Assembly (NCBI GenBank): GCA_905160935.1
Contig: CAJHZI010000435.1
Coordinates: forward strand, 205,001-269,000
Source of the DNA: Enchytraeus crypticus
Lineage: Eukaryota; Annelida; Clitellata; Enchytraeida; Enchytraeidae
Reading direction: 5' to 3'
DNA length: 64,000 nt
The translations under genes were made by a program, and so were the position numbers. The first letter of the stretch is position 1, and each line of letters starts with the position of its first letter. The notes under the pieces are model-generated. The model was not told where the DNA came from, ran no database searches, and saw only the letters and a program-made list of their open reading frames with translations. This document shows, in pieces, positions 13 through 7,770 of the stretch.

Positions 13-172
13 CTTTGACATGGAGCCTGGCCTTGGCGTACGCCGTGCCAGCCATGCTGATACCCTGACAGGAGTACTCTCCCCCGTCCCCCTCCGTCAC
101 CCCCTCAATGATCAGCGTGCCCTCCTCGGTCACTCGATACCTGCCCTCAGCCTGGTTCACGAACAGGTACTT
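13..172 (-). CDS. robo: Robo exon: second half of Ig4
   Basis: This exon completes the fourth immunoglobulin domain of a roundabout receptor, the transmembrane receptor for Slit ligands. The translation starts KYLFVNQAEGRYRV, runs through TEEGTLIIEGV and has the closing Ig cysteine in GEYSCQG, followed by GTAYAKARLHV, the usual last beta strand. The acceptor is TTTATGCAG ending at 173 and the donor is G|GTAAAT at 12. Length is 160 bp, starting in phase 0 and ending in phase 1. Joined to the exon at 1346-1470, the spacing from the Ig tryptophan to this strand is about three residues shorter than human ROBO1 Ig4. Third codon positions are GC-rich, unlike the intron. The transcript continues beyond the left edge. 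Confidence 0.88.
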
Positions 173-640: not shown

Positions 641-1345
641 GACCTGTGTGTTGGGAGTGGTCCAGAACACGGCTGGACTGGGGTTGCCACTCAACTCACA
701 TCTCATCACGTGATTGATTGATTGATTGATTGATTGACTGATAGAGGTACCTGTGTGTTGGGAGTGGACCAGAACACGGATGGACTAGGGTTACCACTCA
801 TCTCACATCTCATCACGTGATTGATTGGTTGATTGATTGATTGGTTGATTGATTGATTGATTGATTGACTGATAGAGGTACCTGTGTGTTGGGAGTAGTC
901 CAGAATACGGCAGGACTGGGGTTACCACTCATCTCACATCTCATCACGTGATTGATTGATTGATTGATTGATAGAGGTACCTGTGTGTTGGGTGTGGTCC
1001 AGAACACTGCTGGACTGGGGTTACCACTCATTTCATATCTCATCACGTGATTGATTGATTGATTGGTTAGTTGATTGATTGATTGATTGATTGATAGAGG
1101 TACCTGTGTGTTGGGAGTGGTCCAGAACACGGCAGGACTGGGGTTACCACTCATCTCACATCTCATCACGTGATTGATTGATTGATTGATTAATTGGTTG
1201 GTTGCTTGATTGATTTATTGATTGATAGAGTTATCTGTGTGTTGGGGGTGATCCAGAACACTACAGGGCTGGGGTTACCACTCATCTCACATCTCATCAC
1301 ATGATTGATTGATTGACTGACTGATTGATTGATTGACAGTGGTAC
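641..1345 (-). repeat. Six tandem partial copies of the Ig4a exon tail
   Basis: Six copies of the last ~65 bp of the neighbouring Robo exon lie in the intron downstream of it, at about 641-710, 746-820, 877-951, 976-1050, 1099-1172 and 1230-1302. They are separated by 25-60 bp of GATT/GATTG repeat. Each copy begins at the same exon point (GTGATGAGATG on the minus strand) and runs to the exon end. Copies at 746, 877, 976 and 1099 keep CAG|GTACC at the donor, the one at 641 has CAG|GTCTAA, and the one at 1230 has lost GT (CAG|ATAAC). The copies translate as MRCEMSGNPSPAVFW with only a few changes (C to Y at 976, M to L at 641, A to V at 1230). No copy has a convincing acceptor, so they are not independent exons. 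Reading the exon frame into the intron meets a stop at 1192-1190. Confidence 0.88.
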
Positions 1346-1470
1346 CTGTGTGTTGGGGGTGGTCCAGAACACTGCAGGACTGGGGTTGCCACTCATCTCA
1401 CATCTCATCACGACCCTCCTGCCCTTGCCCACTGTCTTGTCGCGAGGTGTCACCACGAACGACGGGCGCG
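1346..1470 (-). CDS. robo: Robo exon: first half of Ig4
   Basis: The translation contains RPSFVVTPRDKTVGKGRRVV, then the first Ig cysteine in MRCEMSGNPSP and the core tryptophan in AVFW, ending TTPNTQ. This matches the start of Ig4 in Robo receptors, where a PRD-V-V-LGR strand and GNPQPAIFW are typical. The acceptor is GACGTTAG before 1470 and the donor is CAG|GTACCA after 1346. The 125-bp exon starts in phase 1 and ends in phase 0, matching its neighbours. I take this copy as the true exon because only it has the upstream half of the domain and an acceptor. Six partial copies of its 3' part follow it in the intron. Confidence 0.9.
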
Positions 1471-2641: not shown

Positions 2642-2769
2642 ACAGCACAGTTAGCTTGGCCTCAGCCTCCTGCCATCCCACAGAGTTCTCCATTCTACAC
2701 ACATAGCGTCCCTCGTCCGTCACCTGAGCGTGCTCTATCCTTAGAGACCTGTCCTCCAGGATCTGAGAT
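2642..2769 (-). CDS. robo: Robo exon: second half of Ig3
   Basis: The codon split over the intron gives Arg, and the frame continues SQILEDRSLRIEHAQVTDEG, then the closing Ig cysteine in RYVCRMENSVGW and QEAEAKLTV. This is the end of the third Ig domain of a Robo receptor. The acceptor is CTACTTTCAG before 2769. I chose the donor T|GTATGT after 2642 because it is the stronger site and gives the phase 1 needed by the next exon. Length is 128 bp. The exon is too short to stand out as an ORF and was found by following the splice phase from 4610-4748. Confidence 0.85.
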
Positions 2770-6849: not shown

Positions 6850-7668
6850 GGAGGAAATTTAATCTGCAACTAACATCATGAAGAATGGGAAAGATGCCGG
6901 AATAGATTATATCCCAGCAGAATTCTTGAAATTGTTGGAAGGAGAAACATTCAATAAGTTAATGGAAGTACGTAAAGAAGCGTACAATACAGGTTTTTGG
7001 TCAGACGACTTTACCAAGTCGGTGATGATCCTAATTCCAAAAAAGCCAAAGCTGTGGAGTGTTCGAATTACAGAACAATCAGTTTAAAACCTCATGCATC
7101 GAAGATCTTATTAAAGATAATAAATAATCACATTCAGTCGAAAGCAGATACGATACTGAGAAAAACACATTTGGTTTTGGGAAAGGATGCGGCACAAGAG
7201 AAACAATAGCTGTAATTCGGCTTCCTTTCGAAAGAAGCTTAGAATATAGAAATGATGTTTTTGTATGCTTTGAAGACTTTGAGAAGGCCTTTGACAGGTT
7301 GGATTGGATAACGATGATGAATATCTTGAAAAGAATAGGAATTGACTGGAGAGATAGAAGACTAATTTAAAAATTGTACATGAATCAAAGAGCAATAATC
7401 AAAATCCAGCAACAATACTCAGAGTCAGAAGGTGAAATAGGACGTGGAGTAAGACAACGTTGTAGCATATCGCCGCTGCTTTTTATCATTTACGCTGAGG
7501 CAATGATGGAGGAAGCCGTGGAAGATATGAAAGAAGGAATAAAAGTAAGAGGAAATTTGTTACAAGATGTACGATTTGCAGATGACCAAGGAATGGTAGC
7601 GGGCAGCGAGACTGGACTGCGGAAGATAATGGATAGGCTGAATGATACGGCATTGAGATATACAAATA
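6850..7668 (+). mobile_element. Decayed LINE reverse transcriptase
   Basis: This is a non-LTR retrotransposon reverse transcriptase fragment read across several frames. In order: KNGKDAGIDYIPAEFLKLL, a stretch with SVMILIPKK and CSNYRTISL (the usual PIPK/NYRPISL region), then VCFEDFEKAFDRLDW with the motif-A aspartate, GVRQRCSISPLLF (motif B, normally GVRQGC) and VRFADDQGMVAG (motif C, catalytic Asp-Asp kept). Frameshifts occur near 7060 and 7185 and a TAA lies near 7366, so it is dead. It ends in a TA microsatellite at 7670. The clade is uncertain. It may be the same family as the GA-tailed 3' ends in this window, but no copy joins the two parts. Confidence 0.88.
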
Positions 7669-7669
7669 G

Positions 7670-7770
7670 GCATATATATACTGTATATATATATATATAT
7701 ATATACATGAATATATACATTATATATATATCTATCTATCTATCTATATATATATATATATAGATATATA

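Follow-up and report, generated by a model that had tools for sequence, protein, structure and literature searches.

Tandem copies of a Robo exon tail with its splice donor in the following intron, and similar exon-edge arrays elsewhere in the genome

Why does the intron behind an exon of a Robo gene hold six further copies of that exon's tail, together with donor-like sites? The initial annotation of the window (the whole stretch of 64,000 nucleotides analysed) gave two possible answers, namely that the array offers competing 5' splice sites, the use of which would give a cut and possibly secreted receptor, or that a unit of exon and microsatellite has expanded neutrally. Here I argue for the second, with a probability of roughly 0.85: the array is best read as a neutral exon-boundary minisatellite (a 'mirage'), in which the exon-proximal donor is the one in use and the copies are intronic passengers.

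The Robo exon and its copies

The gene is read from the minus strand. The exon concerned (1346..1470, 125 nt, phase 1 in and phase 0 out, TTAG|CG at its start and CACACAG|GTACCA at its end) encodes the first half of the fourth Ig domain (Ig4), and the next exon (13..172, from ATGCAG|AAG to AAG|GTAAAT) encodes the second half. The joined halves match 'Roundabout homolog 2' (6iaa) at E = 2e-48 in phmmer, with the fourth Ig-like stretch of that chain as the best stretch, and the protein aligns to the fourth Ig of Robo1 and Robo2 without a gap across the 1346-172 exon join. On the same strand lie the exons for Ig1 (about 25887-25585, located with a fly Robo query), for Ig2 (about 5906-5630) and for the first and second halves of Ig3 (4743-4610 and 2642..2769), the last of which precedes the Ig4 exon. 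Elsewhere in the window, positions 6863-7763 hold open frames that resemble, by eye, fragments of a non-LTR reverse transcriptase.

The last 66 bases of the Ig4 exon are present seven times between 1411 and 644, all on the minus strand, once as the exon's own tail (T1, 1346..1411, VMRCEMSGNPSPAVFWTTPNTQ, followed after 1346 by the authentic donor GTACCA) and six times in the intron. A search with the T3 sequence as query finds copies with 0-5 substitutions from it. T2 (1235..1300) has lost the GT of its donor (CAG|ATAACT), T3 (1104..1169), T4 (981..1046, with a change of Cys to Tyr), T5 (882..947) and T6 (751..816) all end in CAG|GTACCT, and the final copy T7 (644..709) ends in CAG|GTCTAA. After each of T1-T6 come similar donor-side intron bases, of which bases 1-11 are identical in T3-T6, and then a spacer of 33-65 nt made of (TCAA)n on the transcript strand, so that the zone with spacers spans 710..1345; no (TCAA)n follows T7. 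The six extra tails, the GATT tracts between them (as read on the other strand) and the donor tally of four CAG|GTACC, one CAG|GTCTAA and one without GT had all been described correctly in the initial annotation, and the unit can now be put at 66 bases, with the intronic copies at 1300-644. Chance is excluded by Tandem Repeats Finder scores of up to 864 and by a self-BLAST of the window with E = 0. The same intron contains, downstream of T7, an array with a 14-bp period and 8.7 copies (436-557), and the preceding Robo intron contains a long imperfect inverted repeat with (TCAA)n and (TTGA)n arms (2342-2593).

Directly before the Robo copies there is no AG acceptor, the preceding bases being ..AATCAC or ..AATCAT, and mutually exclusive or cassette exons were rejected because the copies lack an acceptor in front. 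In this respect the array also differs from a Dscam-like cluster of alternative exons, in which every copy comes with a 3' splice site of its own.

Assembly of tandem arrays is difficult, and the whole array might be thought an artefact of it. However, the copies differ pairwise by 2-9 substitutions, their spacers are of unequal length, similar arrays recur on other contigs, and the window sits on a contig of 789,724 bases, which together make an artefact scarcely credible. Among the listed part of the 192 matches in the 524-Mb assembly (40 of 617 candidates scored) the Robo array is matched in full nowhere else, and most of the other listed matches fall on its (TCAA)n parts; the self-BLAST of the window showed no stray copies either. 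Rfam gave no match, and no relative was found among viral contigs.

Exon edges copied at other loci

Among the genomic hits of the Robo array were two loci (L002 and L003) with arrays whose units combine about 70 unique bases with the tetranucleotide. Nineteen stretches were taken around such hits (L009-L027, with L026 and L027 being L002 and L003 again), a sample that is accordingly biased towards (TCAA)n, and seven of them contain exon-edge arrays by reading (L010, L011, L012, L013, L016, L026 and L027). At L026 the tail of a TSP1-like exon is copied four times with its donor GTACAG, and the opposite end of that intron holds two copies of the next exon's head with its acceptor; at L027 the head of a DAXX-like exon with the acceptor TCTAG| is copied seven times; the remaining five loci show copied exon heads. 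When nine exon peptides from these edge loci were compared with Pfam, DAXX scored above the cut-off, TSP1_ADAMTS, AMP-binding, sodium:sulfate symporter and TSP1_spondin appeared below the cut-offs, and four of the nine peptides gave nothing. Two further features of these stretches are an 11-copy array of ~95 bp with a trinucleotide tract at L026 (5564-6592), which may be a further array of exon heads in that TSP1-like gene region, and an interstitial array of TTAGGG/TTAGGA-like repeats at L019 (4488-4804).

In order to reduce the microsatellite bias of this sample, I surveyed 40 partial protein-kinase exons with 800 bases on each side, in two batches of 20 that were hand-picked from 137 matches and not drawn at random by program. 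An automatic direct-repeat test of each exon region against its surroundings flagged 7 and 8 exons in the two batches (15/40). Sorting of the alignments by eye left 13 exons with a copied edge, or 13 of 80 boundaries (16%): L040, L043, L048, L050, L056, L058, L066, L070, L072, L074, L076, L077 and L078, the last with diverged copies of 69-78% identity. At the other two flagged exons, L041 and L071, the repeat consists of intron only. Minisatellites with a period of 10 or more cover 12.7% of the kinase flanks and 14.6% of the window, and exon boundaries thus seem to be copied at roughly the rate seen in the rest of the non-coding sequence, near chance in an informal comparison. The direct-repeat test was also run on the five Robo exons of the window other than 13..172, and only the Ig4 exon has a copied edge; at the preceding exon, 2642..2769, the direct-repeat test found no edge copies.

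Both kinds of splice site are involved. Copied tails, with 5' splice sites, occur in Robo, in the TSP1-like gene, at L072 and at L077, and copied heads, with 3' splice sites, at L010-L013, L016, L026, L027, L056, L066, L076 and others. The copying of exon edges is not specific to Robo: unrelated genes show it too, among them TSP1-like, DAXX-like and AMP-binding-like ones and kinases. A strand rule, by which (TCAA)n would follow donors and (GATT)n would precede acceptors, held in the first arrays and failed at the L072 tail. At L010, L013, L016 and L027 the exon resembles the microsatellite for a few bases at the end of the unit (TTGA, TGAT), possibly a cause in the form of microhomology; such bases are not obvious at L012, L056 and L066.

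Donor use, constraint and the origin of the array

I scored the donors with a generic weight matrix for 5' splice sites. T1 receives 0.10 bits, T3-T6 receive 1.72 each and T7 receives -3.74, and by this crude measure the real donor is no stronger than T3-T6; the other Robo donors score 3.40, 3.06, 3.47 and -2.35. The units also contain internal sites, GAT|GTGAGA at 1402, 1291, 1160, 938 and 807 (T1, T2, T3, T5 and T6) and GTGAGT at 700 (T7), which outscore the exon-end donors on the same matrix. Reading past the T1 donor meets its first in-frame stop, a TAA, at 1190..1192, as had been claimed, and further stops lie behind it. The accompanying claim that the downstream donors would not keep the frame holds in substance: the donors of T3, T4, T5 and T6 lie 242, 365, 464 and 595 bases from that of T1 and are all out of frame, the T2 site at 111 is in frame with its GT lost, and the T7 donor at 702 is in frame, but behind stops. 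Use of T3-T6, all four of which are behind a stop, would lengthen the exon from 125 nt to 367-720 nt. Since no other donor than the exon-proximal one after 1346 gives an intact Ig4, splicing most likely uses that donor.

Whether the splice sites of the copies are maintained was examined in 48 copies from 18 arrays, comprising 13 of the 14 arrays used for the synonymous counts below and five more kinase arrays. Counted were ungapped copies that reach the edge; one alignment with a gap and three that were short were set aside, and head A of L027 was omitted as its acceptor is unclear. (The 13 kinase edge arrays contribute nine arrays to this count and four to the synonymous count.) The splice dinucleotide is intact in 44 copies, where identity alone predicts 40.8 +/- 2.4, a retention slightly above expectation with no clear sign of maintenance. 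These counts bear on the possibility that T3-T6 act as regulated competing 5' splice sites, used at some level, with an extended exon that reaches the stop at 1192-1190 and a product that is either degraded by NMD or is a receptor cut in Ig4. Such regulation would fit the presence of four intact donors that each score above T1 on the weight matrix, and passages of PMC3087553 mention that the AG/GT signals in repeats of this type could serve as cryptic splice sites. However, T2 has no GT, the T7 donor is poor, use of T3-T6 would make the exon far longer than the real one, the dinucleotides of the copies are kept about as plain identity predicts, and similar arrays occur in kinase genes at about the background rate of minisatellites. 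In addition, the amphioxus mirages are reported without splicing disturbance in the relevant sections of PMC3087553 and PMC3902484. I thus consider regulated competition unlikely, and the cut and possibly secreted Robo proposed in the initial annotation found no positive support.

A different objection to neutrality comes from the Robo copies themselves. The seven copies contain 16 variants, 10 synonymous and 6 non-synonymous (P = 0.0022 given the mutation spectrum), fourfold sites vary far more often than zerofold sites (7/10 vs. 6/46, Fisher P = 0.0006, with identical counts when only the six intronic copies are taken), and the shortest trees require 12 synonymous and 6 non-synonymous changes. 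The four variants common to more than one copy are all synonymous, while the 12 singletons divide evenly (6 and 6, P = 0.053). Taken alone, the intronic Robo copies look coding-constrained, which counts against the neutral reading, although it is the shared variants that drive the signal. Selection on the exon is enough to raise the synonymous share if that exon seeds or converts neutral copies. Pooled over 14 arrays, the unique differences between exon and copies amount to 51 synonymous and 48 non-synonymous ones. An all-neutral model expects 26% synonymous (P = 6e-8), whereas a model with a selected exon and neutral copies expects 41% (P = 0.026), and without the two tail arrays of Robo and TSP1 the remaining 33 synonymous and 37 non-synonymous differences are close to this expectation (P = 0.195). 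Relative to the selected-exon model, the pooled data show a synonymous excess that is weak, though not zero. Further points against neutrality are the stop-free counted codons of 12 arrays, the identical intron-side bases of T3-T6, the higher scores of the four decoy donors and the slight surplus of kept splice dinucleotides.

Selection for the protein sense of the copies, or a role for them as conversion donors that maintain the exon, would account for the synonymous excess in Robo and for the 8 synonymous against 5 non-synonymous differences between the TSP1-like exon and its copies. Yet selection on the copies, as suggested by Robo alone, became a weak case once the 14 arrays were pooled: much of the signal follows from constraint on the exon itself, the other loci are near the neutral-copy expectation, and in-frame stops occur in the counted copies of two arrays (L050 and L056), with no stop in the counted codons of the other 12. 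The missing acceptor before the Robo copies also makes their splicing-in as exons unlikely. Altogether, I regard maintenance by selection as very improbable.

The neutral expansion of an exon-plus-microsatellite unit, already considered in the initial annotation, gains support from its recurrence at many sampled loci, from an edge-copy rate about equal to the minisatellite cover of the flanks, and from copies that evolve nearly as neutral copies of a selected exon. Given edge copies at about a third of the sampled coding pieces, the Robo array is most likely a harmless repeat expansion. The unit would consist of the last 66 bases of the Ig4 exon, the 5' splice site and (TCAA)n, and would have been amplified in tandem within the intron, with slippage or unequal exchange at the microsatellite as the probable mechanism. 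The donor after 1346 would remain in use, as the sole one yielding an intact Ig4, and the six copies downstream of it would be passengers, whose synonymous differences may mainly record the history of the constrained exon while it seeded or converted them. At many of the loci sampled in the genome, the same process has struck exon edges at donors and acceptors alike.

Relation to mirages and other known systems

On the mtDNA contig the genes ND5-ND4L-ND4-ND1-ND3-ND2-COX1-COX2 lie on one strand (code 5, about 11,950 of 15,205 bases), with COX1 confirmed by search and the others recognised by eye. This order looks annelid-like and not cephalochordate. In view of it, an origin from a penaeid or other decapod, first suggested by the microsatellite load, was dropped, and an amphioxus origin, suggested by the mirage literature and the genome size, found no support. 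Outside the mtDNA contig there are five partial COX1 matches (G000 contigs C361, C424, C796, C373 and C166), four of them with internal TAA or TAG, which are probably nuclear copies of mtDNA. A search for GFP gave no match, which likewise speaks against amphioxus, but only as a weak negative because no control gave a match.

Mirages are known from the amphioxus genes Adh3, the globins BflGb6/BflGb9, TnC and PGBD5, according to passages of PMC3087553 and PMC3902484, the latter of which adds PGBD5 and cites Adh and TnC. As described there, they are minisatellite-like tandem duplications of an exon/intron boundary, 5' or 3', with AG or GT in many units, just as the arrays found here. The Robo units contain an exon part, the splice junction and adjacent intron, the authentic copy is the exon-proximal one (T1 runs on unbroken from the rest of the Ig4 exon), and the boundaries affected in this genome are of both types, 5' and 3'. 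By its structure the Robo array is a mirage, a kind that is defined by structure and not by taxon. However, the hosts in the sections of PMC3087553 and PMC3902484 concerned are cephalochordates, which the present host does not resemble by mitochondrial gene order, and those sections describe single genes, whereas the present survey gives copied edges at 13 of 40 kinase exons. Unlike the amphioxus mirages, many units here carry a tetranucleotide microsatellite, partly because the loci were chosen by it. In the open-licence literature searched, I found no report of mirages outside cephalochordates. Parts of PMC3087553 further describe concerted evolution and haplotypes that differ in unit number, and propose such repeats as a route to new introns.

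Other systems share single traits with these arrays. Intron gain by tandem duplication of an AG/GT proto-splice site (Rogers; Gao and Lynch 2009; as related in portions of PMC3087553 and PMC2809761) likewise copies splice signals within a gene, but the Robo copies sit in an existing intron and no new intron is seen. The microsatellite-associated segmental duplications of insects, as outlined in part of PMC3878106, also involve repeated duplication of microsatellite pairs with the intervening sequence; in contrast to the present arrays, they are reported mostly from gene-free regions, and no link to exon edges is described there. For humans, changes of tandem repeats at exon-intron boundaries are described in PMC2812944.

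By itself the Robo array is nothing unusual in this genome. The wider pattern is unusual: exon-boundary minisatellites, described from single amphioxus genes in PMC3087553 and PMC3902484, occur in another animal, probably an annelid, at about a third of the sampled kinase exons. If the kinase sample holds, about a third of exons would be accompanied by decoy copies of an edge, most with intact splice dinucleotides. My suggestion, a tentative one, is that correct splicing would then follow a rule of exon proximity or exon definition, by which one site is chosen among up to eight near-identical ones, and that leakage from these unstable arrays could be a lasting source of truncated isoforms, sliding of boundaries and new introns. 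Such a genome would be rich in natural tests of spliceosomal choice between near-identical sites, and of the gain of introns via boundary duplication.
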